Shown here piece by piece: positions 41,787 through 58,112 of a stretch of 64,000 nt of DNA. The notes below the pieces were generated by a model. That model had not been told where the DNA came from and ran no database searches. It saw only the letters and a list, made by a program, of their open reading frames with translations. Numbering within the stretch: position 1 is the stretch's first letter; every line of letters begins with the position of its first letter. Source of the stretch: Subsaxibacter sp. CAU 1640 (GTDB lineage Bacteria; Bacteroidota; Bacteroidia; Flavobacteriales; Flavobacteriaceae); contig NZ_JALNMI010000005.1 of NCBI RefSeq assembly GCF_023156585.1, positions 62,001-126,000 of the forward strand, read 5' to 3'. Made by a program: the position numbers and the translations under genes.

Positions 41787-42551
41787 TTAATTTAAAATAG
41801 CATCTACAAATTGTGATATTTCGTCATCAGTTTTCGATGAAAGGAATTTTATAAACGCACTGCCAATGATCGCACCGCTGGAAAACTCAGTTGCCTGACG
41901 GAAAGTTTCTTGGTTTGAAATGCCAAAACCGACAATCGTCGGATTCTTAAGATTCATCTCTGAAATCCGTTTGAAATAGTCCGTTTGTTCCCTGCCAAAA
42001 CCCGATGAAGCACCTGTGACACTCGCACTACTGACCATATATATAAAACCATTGGATACCGAATCGATATAACGAATGCGCTCATCAGACGTTTGAGGCG
42101 TTATCAAAAACACATTGATAAGTCCGTTAGCCTCAAAAATAGATTGATACTCTTCTCGGTACACATCTATGGGCAAGTCGGGAATAATGAGTCCGTCAAT
42201 ACCGATGGCTGCACACTGTTTGCAAAAAGCCTCAACACCATATTGTAATATTGGGTTAAAATAGCCCATAATAATCAACGGAATGCTGACCGATTGACGA
42301 ATGTCTTTCAATTGATTGAACAACACGTTCGTGGTCATTCCATTCTTCAAAGCCTGCGTTGAACTCGCTTGAATGGTTGGTCCGTCTGCCAAAGGGTCAC
42401 TGAACGGCAAGCCAATTTCTATGATATCCACGCCACTTTTTTCCAATTGTTGGATGATGGAAACAGTATCCTCCAGCTTGGGATATCCAGCCGTAAAATA
42501 GATGGAGAGGAGTTTTTTGTTTTCTTTGAGTTTCGTTTGTATGCGATTCAT
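41787..42551 (-). CDS. trpA: Tryptophan synthase alpha chain
   Basis: A protein of 254 residues, slightly shorter than the E. coli enzyme. Catalytic and structural motifs: LSIYFTAGYPKLEDT, IEIGLPFSDPLADGPTIQ (with the catalytic Glu), IMGYFNPILQYGVEAFC, IDGLIIPDLP (with the catalytic Asp), LITPQTSDERI, FIYMVSSASVTGA and VGFGISNQ. It cleaves indole-3-glycerol phosphate and passes indole to TrpB through a tunnel. It is the last gene of the trp operon, 51 bases after trpB across a repeat of TTCAGTG units. Confidence 0.95.
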   Translation of the reverse strand: MNRIQTKLKENKKLLSIYFTAGYPKLEDTVSIIQQLEKSGVDIIEIGLPFSDPLADGPTIQASSTQALKNGMTTNVLFNQLKDIRQSVSIPLIIMGYFNPILQYGVEAFCKQCAAIGIDGLIIPDLPIDVYREEYQSIFEANGLINVFLITPQTSDERIRYIDSVSNGFIYMVSSASVTGASSGFGREQTDYFKRISEMNLKNPTIVGFGISNQETFRQATEFSSGAIIGSAFIKFLSSKTDDEISQFVDAILN

Positions 42552-42567
42552 TTTTACTTAAATTTTA

Positions 42568-42600
42568 CTGAACACTGAACACTGAACACTGAACAATTCT
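42568..42600 (-). repeat. Stop-adjacent TTCAGTG repeat after trpB
   Basis: About four TTCAGTG units on the minus strand, eight bases after the trpB TAA and before trpA. They are transcribed within the operon. Confidence 0.8.
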
Positions 42601-42602
42601 AT

Positions 42603-43784
42603 TTACAATCCAAAATGCTTAATATAAGTATCCAAATCCTTATCACCACGTCCTGACAAACTCACCACAACGATGTCATTCGGTTTAAACTCTTTTTGCT
42701 CAAAAATTGCCAAAGCGTGCGCACTTTCAATGGCAGGAATAATACCTTCAAGTTTGCAAAGCTCTAGCCCAGCTGTCATTGCTTGGTCGTCAGTGATGGC
42801 AATGAATTCGGCGCGTCCAGTTTTATACAAATGTGCGTGCATAGGGCCAACACCAGGATAGTCCAAGCCAGCGGAAATAGAGTATGGCTCGGTAATTTGC
42901 CCATCTTTGGTTTGCATCAATAAGGTTTTACTCCCGTGAATGATACCTTCCTTGCCCAAAACGGAAGTCGCTGCACTCTCACCAGAGTCCACGCCGTGTC
43001 CAGCCGCTTCGACGGCAATCAGTTTCACTTCTGTATCATCCAAAAAATGATAATAAGCACCAGCAGCGTTACTGCCTCCACCCACGCAAGCCACGATGTA
43101 ATCTGGTTTTGCAATGCCTTCCCGCGCTTGCAATTGTTCTTGAATTTCCTTTGAAACCACCGATTGAAATCGTGCCACCATATCAGGATACGGATGCGGA
43201 CCGACCACGCTACCGATGATGTAATGCGTATCCACGGGATTGTTAATCCAATCGCGAATGGCTTCGTTAGTGGCGTCTTTCAAGGTTTTGCTTCCAGAAG
43301 TTGCAGGTACAACCGTGGCGCCAAGCATTTTCATACGTGCCACATTGGGTGCTTGTCGTGCGATGTCGATTTCGCCCATATACACAATACATTCCAATCC
43401 GATCAAGGCGCAAACCGTCGCCGTCGCCACGCCGTGCTGACCAGCACCAGTTTCGGCAATGATACGCGTTTTGCCCAGACGCTTTGCCATCAGTATTTGT
43501 CCGATAGTATTATTGATTTTGTGCGCTCCTGTATGGTTGAGGTCCTCGCGCTTCAAGTAGATTTTTGTGTTGTACTTTTCGGACAATCGCTTCGCAAAAT
43601 AGAGTGGAGAAGGGCGTCCAACGTAATCTTTCAGCAATTGATTGAACTCTTTTTCAAAAGAAGGCTCTGACATAACATTCAGATACTTTTGTCGCAGTTC
43701 TTCCACATTAGGATAGAGCATTTCAGGTATGAAAGCCCCACCGAAGTCTCCATAATACCCTTTGTTGTTGATGTTGTATGTCAT
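42603..43784 (-). CDS. trpB: Tryptophan synthase beta chain
   Basis: A protein of 393 residues, the normal length. It contains [29 protein letters not shown], the PLP-lysine motif [34 protein letters not shown], the phosphate-binding [16 protein letters not shown], and [15 protein letters not shown]. It condenses indole and serine to tryptophan as an alpha2-beta2 complex with TrpA. It follows trpF by 34 bases, a gap filled by a palindromic element (43788-43812). Confidence 0.97.
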
Positions 43785-43787
43785 AAT

Positions 43788-43812
43788 CTTTTTCCCGCGA
43801 AAGCGGGAATCT
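43788..43812 (-). repeat. GATTCCCGC palindrome between trpF and trpB
   Basis: TTCCCGC (43792-43798) pairs with GCGGGAA (43803-43809). It belongs to the small palindrome family also seen at 47315, 48971 and 49064. Confidence 0.75.
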
Positions 43813-43818
43813 TTTTTA

Positions 43819-44508
43819 TTATAAACTTTTTATTTTCTCTTTAAATAATTCCAATTTCTGAACATCCTTCAATCCTGGTTCTATCTCAAATTTACTGTTG
43901 ACGTCAATGGCGTTGCAAAATTGAGATTCTTTGGTTTGTAAGAATGACTTCAAATCATCCAGTTGTTCCAATCCGATGCCACCACTCAAAAAAAATGGTT
44001 TTGAGGAGGGATAGTTTTTTAAAACCGTCCAGTCAAACGTGAAACCGTTGCCACCGGGCAGTTTTCCTTTAGTGTCAAATAGATAATAATCGCACACAGA
44101 TTCATAAGGTTGTAAGGTCTCAGAATCAAACTGGTTGTCTACTGAAAAGACTTTGATGATTATAACGTCATTGCGAGCGTAGCGCGGCAATCTTTTGATT
44201 TCACTAGTGTTATTATCGTCAATTTGTTCCTCGAAATGACGCTTTAAATCTTTACAAAATTCAGCAGATTCTGAACCGTGCAATTGAATCACATTCAAAC
44301 CATATGCTGTGATTTTTTCCAGAATGAATTCAATAGGAGCATTCACAAACACACCTACTTTTTTTATCTCTTTTGGCAGATTTGGAATGTCTCTATTAAA
44401 ATATCGAGCGGACTTTTCATAGAAAATAAATCCCAAATACTCTGGTTGAAGTTGGGCAACTTCAAGAATGTTCTTTTCTGATGTCATTCCGCAGACTTTA
44501 AGTTTCAT
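43819..44508 (-). CDS. trpF: Phosphoribosylanthranilate isomerase, with an inserted palindromic repeat
   Basis: A protein of 229 residues, longer than the usual 195-210. Core motifs: [36 protein letters not shown], the catalytic Cys in [39 protein letters not shown] with the catalytic Asp, [13 protein letters not shown] and [16 protein letters not shown]. Residues around 92-117 (HFEEQIDD..., then [12 protein letters not shown]) have no counterpart in other TrpF proteins and are encoded by a ~76-base repeat element with inverted ends. The insertion is in frame, at a surface loop between beta-4 and alpha-4 or nearby, so the enzyme may still work. Confidence 0.95.
44166..44241 (-). mobile_element. 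Palindromic MITE-like element inserted in frame in trpF
   Basis: On the minus strand it starts CGTCATTTCGAG and ends CTCGCAATGACG, i.e. imperfect 12-base terminal inverted repeats, with AAAAGATTGCCGCGCTACGC in the right half. Related intergenic copy at 28503-28540. Translated in trpF as HFEEQIDD ... [12 protein letters not shown]. Confidence 0.75.
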
Positions 44509-45290
44509 CGTGACAGCTCTTTTATAAATTCGCTCGCACTATTGCCAGGATGATTAGTTTTCATAAAGTTTTCTCCAATCAAAAAACCTTTATAATCATA
44601 CGCCTTCAAATCTTTAATGGCTTCTATCGAACTAATGCCACTTTCGGAGACTTTGATAAATTCATTTGGTATCAAACTTGAAAGATTTTTACTCGTGTCC
44701 AAACTCACCTCAAAGGTGTTAAGGTTTCGATTGTTGACACCTATCATATCAAGGCTCGGCATAATGGATTTGTGCAGTTCTTCTTCATTATGCACTTCCA
44801 AAAGCACCTCCAGACCAACTGATTGTGCCAATTCCGAAAACCTCTTAATGTCAGCTTTCGAAAGAATCGCTGCAATCAGCAAAATGACATCCGCTCCAAA
44901 GGCTTTTGCTTCCAGAATTTGGTATTCATCAATTAAAAATTCTTTCCGAAGTAATGGCAAATCACAACTACTTCGTGCAACAATCAAATCGTCCAGTGAA
45001 CCTCCAAAATATTTTCCATCGGTCAATACAGACATTCCACAAACGCCAGCATTTTCATATCCTTTTGCAACTTCAAAAACGTTCAAATCTTGATTGATAA
45101 CAGCTTTTGAAGGGGAACGTCGTTTATGCTCGGCGATGATGCCAGAATTGCTTTGATGCAAATTGCTAACCAAGGAATTCGTATTCTTCTGAAATAAAAC
45201 AGATTGTTCCAATTGCGAGAAGGGAATAACAGATTTCTTAAAACCTACTTCCTTCCTTTTGTCCACTACTATCTTGTCTAAAATTGTCAT
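44505..45290 (-). CDS. trpC: Indole-3-glycerol-phosphate synthase
   Basis: A protein of 261 residues, monofunctional as in most Bacteroidota. It contains ILDKIVVDKRKEV, IIAEHKRRSPSKAVI with the catalytic Glu and Lys, SVLTDGKYFGGSLDDL, LPLLRKEFLIDEYQILEAKAFGADVILLI, VLLEVHNEEEL, GVNNRNLNTFEVSLDTS, SESGI and FLIGENFMK. It closes the indole ring from CdRP. It overlaps trpD upstream and trpF downstream by four bases each (ATGA), so the three are translationally coupled. Confidence 0.96.
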   Translation of the reverse strand: MTILDKIVVDKRKEVGFKKSVIPFSQLEQSVLFQKNTNSLVSNLHQSNSGIIAEHKRRSPSKAVINQDLNVFEVAKGYENAGVCGMSVLTDGKYFGGSLDDLIVARSSCDLPLLRKEFLIDEYQILEAKAFGADVILLIAAILSKADIKRFSELAQSVGLEVLLEVHNEEELHKSIMPSLDMIGVNNRNLNTFEVSLDTSKNLSSLIPNEFIKVSESGISSIEAIKDLKAYDYKGFLIGENFMKTNHPGNSASEFIKELSR

Positions 45291-46285
45291 TGGTTTTTAC
45301 TCAAGGTTACAAGGGTTTCAAATCGCTTTTTTGCTTCGCCATTCAACAACGATTCTTTTGCCATTTCAAAAGCATTTTGAAGTCCAGTTTGTTTCACTGT
45401 GTCGATAGCGAGTGCAGCATTGGCACAAACAACATTGTTCTGCGCTTCGGTGCCGTGTCCGTCCAAAATATGCTTGAAAATCGTGGCAGCACTCTCAATC
45501 GTGTTGCCTCCATAAATGGCTTCTTGCGATAGGGTTTCTATATCGAAATAACTCGGGTCAAGCATAAATTCAGAATGATTTTTGACCACTTTCGAAGTAC
45601 CAGTCAATGAGATTTCATCGTAGCCATCAAGTGCGTGTACGATGGTGTAATTTTTATAAGTATTTTGATATAGATAACCATACAAGCGCAACAATTCCAA
45701 ACTAAAAACACCCACCATTTGATGTGGCGGAAAGGATGGATTCACCATTGGGCCAAGCATATTGAAAAATGTTTTCACGCCCAATTCTTTGCGAATGGGT
45801 GCCACATTTTTCATTGCTGGATGAAACAAAGGCGCGTGCAAAATGCAAATACTTGCTTTATTCAAACATTCTTTTAGAAAGTCAACGTCTCTAGTGAATT
45901 TCACGCCTAAATGCTCCAACACGTTTGAAGACCCACTAACAGACGACACGCCATAATTACCGTGTTTAGTAACATTCACTCCAGCGCCAGCAGTTACAAA
46001 AGAGGCAAGTGTGGAAATATTGAAAGTGTTTTTCCCATCACCACCTGTACCGCACAAATCGATGCCATTATACCCTTTCAAATCGACTGGAATACACATT
46101 TCCAAAAGTGCATCGCGAAATCCTTTCAGCTCTTCAATGGTAATGCTTCGCATCATATACACCGTCAGAAACGATGCAATCTGACTTTGGTTGTAATCTC
46201 CTTTTGAGATGTTCACCAACACCTGTTTTGCTTCCTCACTTGAGATGCTTTCGTGGTTGATGAGTCTGTTTAATATTTGCTTCAT
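45287..46285 (-). CDS. trpD: Anthranilate phosphoribosyltransferase
   Basis: A protein of 332 residues. It has the GTGGDGKNTFNIST PRPP-binding motif (DLCGTGGDGKNTFNISTLAS), KHGNYGVSSVSGSSNVLEHLG, FHPAMKNVAPIRKELGVKTFFNMLGPMVNP and HALDGYDEISLTG. It attaches phosphoribose to anthranilate. It overlaps trpC by four bases. It follows the four-helix-bundle gene after 53 bases of ATCTTAA-type repeats, and is a separate gene from trpG. Confidence 0.96.
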   Translation of the reverse strand: MKQILNRLINHESISSEEAKQVLVNISKGDYNQSQIASFLTVYMMRSITIEELKGFRDALLEMCIPVDLKGYNGIDLCGTGGDGKNTFNISTLASFVTAGAGVNVTKHGNYGVSSVSGSSNVLEHLGVKFTRDVDFLKECLNKASICILHAPLFHPAMKNVAPIRKELGVKTFFNMLGPMVNPSFPPHQMVGVFSLELLRLYGYLYQNTYKNYTIVHALDGYDEISLTGTSKVVKNHSEFMLDPSYFDIETLSQEAIYGGNTIESAATIFKHILDGHGTEAQNNVVCANAALAIDTVKQTGLQNAFEMAKESLLNGEAKKRFETLVTLSKNQ

Positions 46286-46338
46286 TTATTAGATTTAAGA
46301 TTTAAGATTTAAGATTTGAGACGTGAGATTTGAGACTT
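46286..46338 (-). repeat. Stop-adjacent AAATCTT repeat
   Basis: Reading from the TAA of the four-helix gene on the minus strand: AAGTCTCAAATCTCACGTCT, then CAAATCTTAAATCTTAAATC and more. It fills the gap to trpD and is similar to the tail at 38701-38730. Confidence 0.75.
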
Positions 46339-46695
46339 TTACTCAATAGAAAATTTTTTAATTAAAGTGAAGTTCATCTTCTGGATTTCGACAATCGTAT
46401 CAAACACTTCTTTAACCTGATGTTCTTCCAAATAGCCAATTCTCTTTGCCAACTCCAATTGTGTAGAGAGTTCGTTGAGTGAGCCATTGGCAATTCCAAG
46501 AAAGTTTCTAAACTCTTTGTTGGAATTTCTTCCGGCTCCTTCTGAAATGTTGGAGGGAACCGAAATGGCACTGCGCTGTACTTGACTTATCAATCCGTAT
46601 TTTTCGTCCCTTGGAAATAATAGTGTTAACGCATAGGTTTTTTCAACCAACTCCATAGACTTTTGCCAAATCTTTAATTCTCTGTAATTATTCAT
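46339..46695 (-). CDS. Four-helix bundle (S23/IVS-protein family) in the trp operon
   Basis: A protein of 118 residues with the family signature: YRELKIWQKSMELVEKTYALT, FPRDEKYGLISQVQRSAISVPSNISEGAGR, EFRNFLGIANGSLNELSTQLELAKRIGYL. The family was first found as a protein encoded in 23S rRNA intervening sequences and forms pentameric or larger helical rings; function unknown. Related genes travel as free-standing insertions in many Bacteroidota genomes. Here it interrupts the trp operon between trpG and trpD, with repeat blocks on both sides, in the operon's direction. It probably has nothing to do with tryptophan. Confidence 0.92.
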   Translation of the reverse strand: MNNYRELKIWQKSMELVEKTYALTLLFPRDEKYGLISQVQRSAISVPSNISEGAGRNSNKEFRNFLGIANGSLNELSTQLELAKRIGYLEEHQVKEVFDTIVEIQKMNFTLIKKFSIE

Positions 46696-46745
46696 ATTGT
46701 CTTCTATTATCTAAAATCTAATGTCTAAAGTCTAACATCTAACGT
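46696..46745 (-). repeat. TTAGA-type repeat overlapping the trpG stop
   Basis: From inside the trpG C-terminus on the minus strand: TTTAGACGTTAGATGTTAGA, then CTTTAGACATTAGATTTTAG. The TAG stop of trpG lies inside the repeat and its last residues (LDVRC) are encoded by it. Confidence 0.75.
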
Positions 46746-47316
46746 CTAAATTAATCCAGTTCGACAACATCCGTTTCCCATCAGGTGTCAACACCGATTC
46801 TGGATGGTACTGCACACCTTTGACATCAAACTCTTTATGACGCAAGGACATCACCTGACCTTGTTCGTCAAAAGAGGTAGCTTCCAACACATCTGGTAAA
46901 TCAGTGGCCACAACCCACGAATGATAACGCCCTACTTCAATGGTCTTGTCCAGCCCATCAAATAAAGGCTCATCCTCCACAGCGATGGTCACTTTTGTTG
47001 CTACACCGTGAAAAACAGTGTCGAGATTAACAAGTTTGCCGCCAAACACTTCGCCAATGGCTTGCTGACCAAGACATACACCAAGGATGCTTTTGGTAGC
47101 TGCGTATCGCTTTATTATAGGTTTTAGCAAACCGGCTTCATCAGGAATACCTGGCCCTGGTGAGAGCAAAATTTTATCAAAGGCTTCCACCTCGTCAAGG
47201 TCTAATTGGTCGTTACGTCGAACGGTCACCTCGCAACCCAAATCTTCCAAATAATGCACAAGGTTGTACGTAAAACTGTCGTAATTATCGATGACTAATA
47301 CTTTTTTCATATCCAT
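46732..47316 (-). CDS. trpG: Anthranilate synthase component II (glutamine amidotransferase)
   Basis: A protein of 194 residues, class I amidotransferase. NYDSFTYNLVHYLEDLG, LLSPGPGIPDEAG, and the nucleophile motif ILGVCLGQQAIGEVFGG with the catalytic Cys; the catalytic His and Glu in KGVQYHPESVLT. It supplies ammonia from glutamine to TrpE. ATG at 47316 or the ATG two codons on (47310) could start translation. The C-terminus LDVRC is coded by a repeat (see neighbouring entry). It is second in the operon. Confidence 0.95.
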   Translation of the reverse strand: MDMKKVLVIDNYDSFTYNLVHYLEDLGCEVTVRRNDQLDLDEVEAFDKILLSPGPGIPDEAGLLKPIIKRYAATKSILGVCLGQQAIGEVFGGKLVNLDTVFHGVATKVTIAVEDEPLFDGLDKTIEVGRYHSWVVATDLPDVLEATSFDEQGQVMSLRHKEFDVKGVQYHPESVLTPDGKRMLSNWINLDVRC

Positions 47317-48792: not shown

Positions 48793-48842
48793 CTATTTAT
48801 CAGTGTCATTTCCGTAATGGCAGAAATGACATTTAATTATAT

Positions 48843-48874
48843 AAAAAAAGCCTGTCGTGAATGACAGGCCTTTT
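48843..48874 (-). terminator. Attenuator terminator of the trp operon
   Basis: On the minus strand AAAAGGCCTGTCATTCACGA, then CAGGC and TTTTTTT: GGCCTGTC pairs with GACAGGCT. It ends about 50 bases before the trpE ATG. Its loop and 3' arm contain TTCACGA, complementary to TCGTGAA at the end of trpL (48909-48915), which gives the antiterminator. Confidence 0.85.
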
Positions 48875-48904
48875 CGATATTGTTGATTAAAATATACTAT
48901 AGGT

Positions 48905-48967
48905 TTAGTTCACGAAGTTTGCGTTTCGAGAATTCCACCACCAAGTATGATTTAAAATTGTGTTCAT
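48905..48967 (-). CDS. trpL: trp operon leader peptide with three consecutive Trp codons
   Basis: ATG at 48967, TAA at 48905-48907; a product of 20 residues, MNTILNHTWWWNSRNANFVN. Residues 9-11 are encoded TGG TGG TGG, the expected stalling site when charged tRNA-Trp is scarce. The last codons (TTC GTG AAC) hold the segment TCGTGAA that can pair with TTCACGA in the terminator. A stalled ribosome leaves this segment free and the antiterminator can form. A ribosome at the stop codon covers it, and the terminator forms. The promoter lies 41 bases upstream, and a small palindrome immediately precedes the ATG. Confidence 0.88.
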   Translation of the reverse strand: MNTILNHTWWWNSRNANFVN

Positions 48968-48970
48968 ATT

Positions 48971-48995
48971 ATTTCCCGTGCAAAAGGGAATCTTT
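48971..48995 (-). repeat. GATTCCC palindrome before trpL
   Basis: GATTCCC, loop TTTTGCAC, GGGAAAT on the minus strand, ending a few bases before the trpL ATG. It may be a member of the small palindrome family; whether it affects trpL translation is unknown. Confidence 0.55.
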
Positions 48996-49007
48996 AATTA
49001 TTTGGTT

Positions 49008-49038
49008 CAAATATAAAAATGAAAACCTTGCTTTTCAA
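49008..49038 (-). promoter_or_regulatory. trp operon promoter
   Basis: On the minus strand TTG (49038-49036), 20 bases, TATATTTG (49015-49008): an exact Bacteroidota -33/-7 promoter. Transcription should start near 49001, 30-35 bases before the leader peptide ATG. Confidence 0.8.
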
Positions 49039-49055
49039 ATTATTTAGGATAAAAT

Positions 49056-49122: not shown

Positions 49123-49674
49123 TTAGAACTTTAAATTGACATTTAGATCAAATTCATCATAAATGGCAGCATCTTTTAATCCGTCAAAGAAACTTGCTGA
49201 CTTGTATTTTATATCAAATTTGGTTCTGTCTACTTTTAAATTAGCAGTAGCAGTGTTGTCTTTCACATTCATATTAAAAGTGATAGGATTTGTGATTCCT
49301 TTGATGGTCAAATCTCCAGTCACTTTGTAGTTGCCAGCTTTTCCATCTACTTTAGTAATCACTAAAGTTGAAGTTTTATGGCTTGCTGTGCTAAAGAAGT
49401 CATCAGACTTTAAGTGACCTTCTAATTTTCCTTTTGAATCACCTTCCAAGTCGGTAACACTCAAGGTTGACATATCAACTGTGAAAGATCCACCAGTCAA
49501 ATTGTTTTTATCGTCAAACTGAAGTGTACCGTCTTGCAATTTAAGAGTTCCGTCGTGTTTTCCTGTTACTTTGTGTCCTACCCAGGTAACTTTACTTTCA
49601 GATACGTTCACTTTCTTTTCAGTTGCTACAGTAGAGGCTGCAAATGCCAATGCTAAAATTATTGTACTTTTCAT
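49123..49674 (-). CDS. YceI-family periplasmic protein
   Basis: A protein of 183 residues. Signal peptide MKSTIILALAFAASTVA, then the YceI lipocalin-like barrel: VSESKVTWVGHKVTGKHDGTLKLQDG, GGSFTVDMSTLSVTD, HLKSDDFFSTASHKTSTLVITKV, YKVTGDLTIKGITNPITFNM, VDRTKFDIKYKSASFFDGLKDAAIYDEFDLNVNLKF. YceI proteins bind isoprenoid-type lipids such as polyprenyl quinones. It is the second gene after a MarR regulator, 12 bases on, and is probably under its control. Confidence 0.93.
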   Translation of the reverse strand: MKSTIILALAFAASTVATEKKVNVSESKVTWVGHKVTGKHDGTLKLQDGTLQFDDKNNLTGGSFTVDMSTLSVTDLEGDSKGKLEGHLKSDDFFSTASHKTSTLVITKVDGKAGNYKVTGDLTIKGITNPITFNMNVKDNTATANLKVDRTKFDIKYKSASFFDGLKDAAIYDEFDLNVNLKF

Positions 49675-57548: not shown

Positions 57549-57553
57549 ATCAG

Positions 57554-57947
57554 TGGAGCCGGAGAGAATCGAACTCTCGTCCAAACAAGTCATCAAAGGG
57601 CTTTCTACACGTTTATTCTTTTCTTGTTTTTTCGAGTGCAAGCTGGTTAAAGACAACCCACTTACACCTTATCTTCTTTAGTTTCAAGAGCAAGTCAAAG
57701 CGCCTCACTCCCTATGTCAACTTTTACGATGCCCCTATGCTGACCGCCGCTGACCAGGGCTTTCAAGGGACATTTAGCCTCTCTACCTTGTAGAGATAAG
57801 CGCAATCTTACTATGATTCAGATTAAGCAGCTAAAGCGTAGTTATTCTCGCCGTTTAAAAGGTTGATATCGTCTTTTACGTGTTTCAATATCATGACACG
57901 ACGTGCTTACCATTCAATAAATCTCGCTGTCAAAACCAGTCGACCCC
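57554..57947 (-). ncRNA. ssrA: Transfer-messenger RNA
   Basis: About 394 bases. The 5' end GGGGTCGACTGGTTTTGACA has the acceptor strand and the conserved tRNA-like domain; the 3' end is GAGAGTTCGATTCTCTCCGG then CTCCA (T-arm with TTCGATT and acceptor). GGGGTCG pairs with CGGCTCC with two wobbles. CCA is not encoded. The tag frame at 57823-57852 reads GGC GAG AAT AAC TAC GCT TTA GCT GCT TAA, i.e. GENNYALAA, a typical Bacteroidota tag. tmRNA rescues stalled ribosomes with SmpB and marks the product for proteolysis. Confidence 0.97.
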
Positions 57948-58104
57948 ATAAATTCCCTGCCAAAGCAGAGATTTCTATATCAAAAAGTAATTCTTCTTTT
58001 TTATGGCGTTACCCTTTTCCGCAAAAGCTCCAAAGGGTCAGGTTTTCCGCTATATCTTTTGCCGAAAAGGCAAAAGGATGCCGCTTCAACCCTTAACGCG
58101 GACG

Positions 58105-58112
58105 CAAAGTTA
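58105..58112 (-). promoter_or_regulatory. Possible tmRNA promoter
   Basis: TAACTTTG on the minus strand, with TTG about 22 bases upstream, 158 bases before the tmRNA 5' end. An internal palindrome (CTCTGCTTTGGCAGGG) lies between it and the tmRNA. A nearer promoter could not be found. The plus-strand part of 57948-58243 shows no gene before 58244. Confidence 0.4.

Follow-up and report, generated by a model that had tools for sequence, protein, structure and literature searches.

The 330 bases upstream of trpE in Subsaxibacter sp. CAU 1640 raise the question of whether a ribosome-mediated attenuator controls this tryptophan operon, and how widely such control is shared among its relatives. Most of what is known about attenuation comes from Proteobacteria, Actinobacteria and Firmicutes. 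In the E. coli trp attenuator, the leader trpL combines a leader peptide containing tandem Trp codons with a protector hairpin, an antiterminator and an intrinsic terminator, and the antiterminator acts in time. We analysed a stretch of 64,000 nucleotides (the window; NCBI RefSeq assembly GCF_023156585.1, contig NZ_JALNMI010000005.1, positions 62,001 to 126,000 of the forward strand). All coordinates below are those of the window.

Sequence comparison and folding models indicate, with a probability of about 0.92, that in this region a ribosome-mediated attenuator controls transcription of the trpEG(x)DCFBA operon, and that it belongs to the Rfam family Bacteroid-trp (RF01692). The evidence lies in the anatomy of the leader, its conservation, the covariation of its base pairs and its predicted folding states. 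The attenuator is ordinary in kind and its mechanism is well supported. Its conserved antiterminator is absent from the public model, and its reach is wider than that model shows.

The leader locus and the trp operon

The features of the leader and the operon are collected in Table 1. The leader holds a short ORF in which codons for tryptophan, the end product of the pathway, stand in tandem, and an intrinsic terminator lies before the first structural gene. The sequence-only reading had described a gap of 330 bases before trpE, a consensus promoter, a 20-codon frame with three consecutive TGG codons, a terminator ending 50 bases before trpE, and complementarity between TCGTGAA and TTCACGA. 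All of these are present on the minus strand where they had been placed. The gap matches the distance between trpE and the upstream neighbour of the leader, a YceI-family ORF ending at 49123. The trpE ATG (48792) stands 50 bases beyond the T tract that follows the hairpin, and the two complementary segments form seven of seven pairs.

The -7 box and the leader ATG are 40 nt apart in the window. If the box is placed at -12 to -5, as in the available text of the 2021 Flavobacterium psychrophilum transcriptome study (PMC9723704), transcription would start at about 49003, and the RNA would carry a predicted 36 nt 5' of the leader ATG.

Table 1. Positions of the trp leader elements and operon genes in the window
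Feature	Position	Strand	Remarks
-33 element TTTG	49036..49039	-	Bacteroidetes sigma-A promoter; 20 bases before the -7 box
-7 box TATATTTG	49008..49015	-	Bacteroidetes sigma-A promoter
Leader peptide ORF MNTILNHTWWWNSRNANFVN	48905..48967	-	20 codons, stop included; ATG 48967-48965, TAA 48907-48905
Regulatory codons TGG TGG TGG	48935..48943	-	Within the leader ORF
Antiterminator 5' strand TCGTGAA	48909..48915	-	Inside the last codons of the leader ORF
Antiterminator 3' strand TTCACGA	48855..48861	-	Terminator loop and first two bases of the terminator 3' arm
Inner antiterminator segment CCU	48901..48903	-	Fold prediction; predicted partner AGG 48871-48869, at the base of the terminator 5' arm
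Protector (1:2-like) hairpin	48887..48955	-	Predicted without a ribosome on the leader; overlaps the Rfam stem
Intrinsic terminator hairpin	48844..48875	-	13 pairs, loop of 6; then T tract to 48843
RF01692 Bacteroid-trp match	48863..48987	-	Model reaches only as far as the terminator 5' arm
trpE, anthranilate synthase component I, 467 aa	47389..48792	-	First controlled gene; TIGR00564, E 5.8e-130, below curated cut-off
Rest of operon: trpG, four-helix-bundle protein ORF, trpD, trpC, trpF, trpB, trpA	41787..47316	-	

Two minor features of the operon were also seen. The ORF between trpG and trpD (46339-46695, minus strand) encodes a TIGR02436 four-helix-bundle protein, and TrpF (43819-44508, minus strand) holds a stretch of 13 residues that resembles a translated dispersed repeat. 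Between the terminator and trpE lies an inverted repeat, TGTCATTTC/GAAATGACA, at 48831-48801 (minus strand). Palindrome-like stretches are also seen 3' of the terminators in some relatives.

The leader and its promoter are conserved across relatives

Leaders of relatives were collected from two kinds of source. Eighty loci were gathered by TrpE similarity alone, and a leader with a Trp run, together with a terminator, precedes trpE in 79 of them; the lone exception, L050, has just 168 upstream bases. The Trp codons lie more than 450 bases upstream of trpE in four of these 79 trpE-anchored leaders, and two (L041 and L059) have no ATG start. The full collection of 204 distinct leaders consists of the window's own, 76 trpE-anchored and 127 RF01692-derived leaders, including four from other families (L112, L120, L121 and L123). 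The RF01692-derived set drew on 130 of the 178 matching genomes, mostly higher-scoring ones, so it leans to the Rfam model. The trpE-anchored set carries no such lean. Nine of the 225 sources were missed by the mechanical leader scan and stay outside the 204: L050, with its short upstream sequence; L114 and L117, whose leaders were read separately; and L173, L174, L180, L197, L204 and L222, where a leader and a hairpin were read but the T-run or stem rule failed.

The TGG run comprises three codons in 199 of the 204 leaders and two in five. The conservation of this run, which the sequence-only reading had proposed as a check, was found both here and in the trpE-anchored loci. Because the TGG run and the pairing described below recur in relatives, the anatomy of the leader is more than chance.

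A promoter of the form TTG-N18-22-TAnnTTTG stands 5' of 169 of the 204 leaders, against 0.8% of shuffles. The -7 box alone was found in 31 leaders, and neither element in four. A Shine-Dalgarno-like motif was observed in eight leaders and was absent from 196 of the 204, which distinguishes them from enterobacterial trpL. The switch is seen here in a setting in which translation starts without Shine-Dalgarno sites. Among the 169 full-promoter leaders, the ATG lies exactly 5 nt past the -7 box in 28 and no more than 6 nt past it in 31 (e.g. L005, L062 and L133). With the box placed as in the available text of PMC9723704, the ATG of these 31 would fall at about +2, and they are probably leaderless leader ORFs. 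The same text gives leaderless mRNAs as 5.5% in F. psychrophilum.

The proposed antiterminator is conserved in the family

TCGTGA and TCACGA occur together, each without a change, in 183 of the 204 distinct leaders. The same holds for 75 of the 79 trpE-anchored leaders, which were not chosen by the Rfam model. The pairing is conserved in relatives, the second check on conservation that the sequence-only reading had set, and a few leaders carry compensatory changes. TCGTGA itself was found in 188 of the 204 leaders, and in all 188 its distance downstream of the first TGG is 26-28 nt. The reading frame gives TCG TGA, with TGA as the stop codon, in 104 leaders, TTC GTG A in 47 (the phase of the window's leader), and the third phase in one; in 36 the hexamer lies past an earlier stop. 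We rejected the idea that the hexamer is kept for its codons, since it is read in three phases or past a stop across the 188 leaders. The hexamer is constant while the peptide ends differ, which argues for selection on the RNA rather than on the peptide.

In 21 leaders the two hexamers are not both exact. Over the tested segment, 14 of these pair at -5 kcal/mol or better and seven are weaker. As a group they pair better with their own partners than with each other's (the observed mean was reached by 14 of 5000 permutations), and only L112 and L213 favour their own partner over either consensus strand. Each of these two carries a compensatory pair: GTCGCAA with TTGCGAC in L213, and CGTAAG with CTTGCG in L112.

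Covariation was examined in an alignment (A1) of 42 of the 204 leaders at less than 74% identity; odd leaders were forced in, L121 and L123 were left out, and the rows of L124, L186 and L206 are probably misaligned. Standard pairs make up 85.7% of the antiterminator helix over the 42 sequences, compared with 81.9% in shuffles, a value that the shuffled pairs reach because the strands are nearly invariant within the family, and with at most 50.4% when the helix was slid. Changes on both sides occur at four of the eight helix pairs, in 13 cells versus 2.8 in shuffles.

Folding states and the proposed mechanism

The folding of the leader beats all 200 of 200 dinucleotide shuffles (z -5.1). Eight core pairs of the terminator are kept in 42 of 42 aligned sequences (100% of cells paired), and five pairs show changes on both sides. 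A simple terminator scan listed the palindrome on the plus strand only and not on the minus strand, where the T tract sits, whereas the fold shows the minus-strand hairpin. The scan probably missed the minus-strand call because the stem runs into the T tract. For the 1:2-like stem taken from the window's fold (pairs from 48952 inward), 61.9% of cells are paired, against at most 46.4% when it was slid, so that this helix appears moderately supported by the alignment. A hairpin in the 5' UTR of the window (48990-48972) was treated as chance; it is absent from the upstream stretches of five relatives.

The leader was folded with a stalled ribosome, with a ribosome at the stop codon and without a ribosome, along the lines of a check that the sequence-only reading had suggested, and the expected three states were obtained. 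In the stalled state of the window, the antiterminator helix has a probability of 0.92-0.94 with the RNA exposed as far as 48855 or 48853, and of only 0.02-0.14 at 48851; the antiterminator thus leads only until 48853 is exposed and has lost to the terminator by 48851. With a ribosome at the stop codon, TCGTGAA is covered and the terminator forms. In the ribosome-free window, the best fold (about -20 kcal/mol overall, the 5' UTR hairpin included) hides TCGTGAA (P 0.00-0.03), and the terminator forms.

Similar states were obtained over 183 leaders, with the RNA taken from the leader start codon. The mean antiterminator probability is 0.91-0.93 in the stalled state and 0.20 without a ribosome, and the window's values in the same calculation are 0.95 and 0.02. 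The ribosome-free fold leaves the hexamer unhidden (P over 0.5) in 30 of the 183. The hexamer starts within the footprint of the stop-codon ribosome, whose 3' edge was assumed to lie 12 bases on, in 183 of 183 leaders. The terminator 5' arm is held by inner upstream pairs with a mean probability of 0.61 over the 183 leaders and 0.40 in the window.

With the whole 3' arm exposed, the equilibrium favours the complete terminator in each of the three ribosome states, and the switch must therefore be kinetic. The proposal that the 7-bp helix alone beats the terminator was rejected on the same result. For the switch logic of the sequence-only reading, this means that the alternation itself stands, since conservation and the three folding states fit it, but its 7-bp helix is just the outer part of the predicted antiterminator and does not outweigh the full terminator at equilibrium. 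Comparative and folding evidence together indicate an antiterminator that is exclusive with the terminator and free only on an early stall.

From these states we infer the following course of events. Transcription would begin at the predicted start near 49003. When tryptophan is present, the ribosome would run to the stop codon and cover TCGTGAA; the terminator (48875-48844) would then fold, and transcription would halt before trpE. When charged Trp-tRNA is short, the ribosome would stall on one of the TGG codons. This would leave TCGTGAA, which lies about 27 nt beyond the first TGG, free to pair with TTCACGA in the loop and 3' arm of the terminator, helped by the inner pairs that would hold the 5' arm. 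In this presumed kinetic competition the antiterminator would delay the terminator, and trpE would be transcribed. Without a ribosome, the protector hairpin over the Trp codons would hide TCGTGAA and the terminator would form.

This is the same three-state logic as in enterobacterial trpL. In contrast to trpL, the 5' strand of the antiterminator spans the end of the ORF; its partner in the window's family is the loop of the terminator together with the 3' arm. For the Bacteroidetes trp leader, these results make the antiterminator a precise target for mutation, one that is conserved throughout the family and recurs, in other letters, in leaders of 21 further families.

A Trp leader ORF with an attenuator outside the enterobacteria is likewise described for trpL/rnTrpL of Sinorhizobium meliloti in the available text of PMC7298713. 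That leader RNA is leaderless and starts at the ATG, whereas the window's has the predicted 5' extension given above. According to the same text, rnTrpL and peTrpL act in trans in S. meliloti, which gives some weight to another explanation of our leader: that it is translated and its terminator works, that termination is largely fixed, that the leader releases a small RNA or peptide acting elsewhere, and that the antiterminator complementarity plays a minor role. We consider this very improbable. The covarying pairing between the ORF end and the terminator, and the place of its 5' strand under a stop-codon ribosome in 183 of 183 leaders, fit a switch in cis, and a role in trans could coexist with such a switch.

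Rfam membership and the published record

RF01692 matches the window at 54.5 bits (cut-off 49) over model positions 1-131 of 131. Both the model and the window have Trp codons in a short ORF, and the site precedes trp biosynthesis genes. In the alignment to the window, 14 positions are marked as non-standard pairs; a stem similar to that of the model, the 1:2-like one, appears in the best ribosome-free fold and shows moderate covariation. In the stem of the model, the Trp-codon region pairs with sequence that follows the stop, and the model stops at the terminator 5' arm; it includes neither the terminator hairpin nor the antiterminator between the ORF end and the terminator. RF01692 is present in 178 of 249 genomes of the same family, 156 of them over the cut-off, and in 15 of 295 genomes of the class.

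At gathering scores, the scan of 4227 Rfam families matched only tmRNA, Bacteroid-trp and Flavo-1 in the window. The tmRNA and Flavo-1 matches lie at 57551-57947 and 58032-58108 (minus strand), less than 90 bases apart. The scan gave no match in the window to a T-box or to another Rfam trp leader family. This bears on the proposal that a Trp-binding protein or a T-box, rather than a ribosome, controls the leader. Systems of this kind are generally known to control trp operons elsewhere, but a run of Trp codons in a short frame, three in nearly all compared leaders, has no role in them. We regard such control as even less probable than largely fixed termination.

Our results leave ribosome-mediated attenuation as the preferred reading, and it is not an undescribed kind of leader. 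That idea was rejected, since RF01692, published in 2010, covers this leader. Table 1 of Weinberg et al. 2010 (PMC2864571) lists Bacteroid-trp under Bacteroidetes with "y" for RNA and "y" for cis-regulatory. The available text of PMC6414381 notes Bacteroid-trp upstream of the F. psychrophilum trp operon. PMC9723704, in the text available, reports amino-acid operons with strong clues for upstream leader-peptide attenuation and confirms five Rfam-predicted 5' elements as expressed; trp is not named in that text. Control of this kind is thus less undescribed in the phylum than the sequence-only reading had it. What may be new is the antiterminator, which the RF01692 model lacks, and how widely it occurs. 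Neither the antiterminator nor its class-wide spread was found in the open-licence literature, though they may be described beyond it, in supplementary material to PMC2864571 or PMC9723704 or in the Rfam entry.

Leaders in other families of the class

A search for TrpE covered 158 genomes of the class. Outside the family, 48 matches scored over 390 bits, and 46 of these were examined (G421 and G253 were left out). A leader was found in 43 of the 46 loci, from 21 families; L239 and L274 share one genome. No leader was seen in L229 and L245 among the 46 loci, and L242 has almost no upstream sequence. The leader ORF has at least two Trp codons in 42 of the 43 and one in L264, and all 43 have a terminator-like hairpin. 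Five of the hairpins (L114, L252, L258, L264 and L269) were set by hand after reading the stretches.

In these leaders the ORF end is able to pair with the terminator of the same leader, and in 41 of the 43 the paired segment overlaps the terminator loop. The mean energy of the own duplex is -16.5 kcal/mol versus -13.0 kcal/mol with swapped terminators, and none of 5000 permutations reached the own value (43 leaders, 21 families). This result stands with one leader per family. Without the five hand-set hairpins the values are -16.0 versus -12.7 kcal/mol (38 leaders, 19 families; 0 of 5000). For 21 of the 43 leaders (19 of 38 without the hand-set ones), the own pairing is equalled by at least 20% of foreign terminators. 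Single cases outside the family are often not significant because many foreign terminators pair equally well.

The letters of the pairing vary from family to family. This speaks against the view that the two hexamers are preserved as a binding site for a protein or the ribosome, with complementarity as a by-product, not a helix. Within the family they hardly vary, and a pair that does not vary is no proof of a helix. Other families, however, keep the pairing with different letters, and in L213 and in L112 both strands are changed and pair better with one another than with the consensus, so that we give this view hardly any credence.

The public RNA model catches only a fraction of the leaders outside the window's family: RF01692 recognises four of the 43 at its gathering score. 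A fifth, L233, comes from a genome whose RF01692 match falls just below that score (48.2 bits).

Under the attenuator reading, it seems fairly likely that a single ancient attenuator design underlies the trp operons throughout the class. Its hallmark would be the pairing of the leader ORF end, around the stop, with the terminator apex rather than the Rfam stem. Individual lineages would have changed the two strands in concert and shifted the target from one terminator arm, 5' or 3', to the other, so that sequence models miss most of these leaders. In part of the Flavobacteriaceae the ORF would start at the first bases of the RNA, and the ribosome would be loaded at once without a Shine-Dalgarno site.

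By eye, the order of the trp operon differs in L114 and L263, which come from one genome of another family. There the leader lies 5' of an apparent trpB, with trpE directly next.

Other amino-acid leaders in the same genome

Candidate leaders for other amino acids were seen in the genome of Subsaxibacter sp. CAU 1640. An ORF of 32 residues with a run of Thr codons (L277) lies just before an aspartokinase gene, and the stretch inspected has no obvious intrinsic terminator. No match to ilvD was found in this genome, though all 14 control genomes match, and the genome possibly lacks branched-chain amino acid synthesis.

A histidine leader and a Tyr/Phe leader were considered as evidence and rejected, since the complementarity is matched by about 8% of shuffles in each. 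The histidine leader, MKFIQNHHHHFHTCTQAS (L275), lies near hisG, and the Tyr/Phe leader (L276), ending in FYFFFSERSEALYV, lies near a prephenate dehydratase gene. Downstream of each is a terminator-like hairpin that is partly complementary to the end of the ORF.
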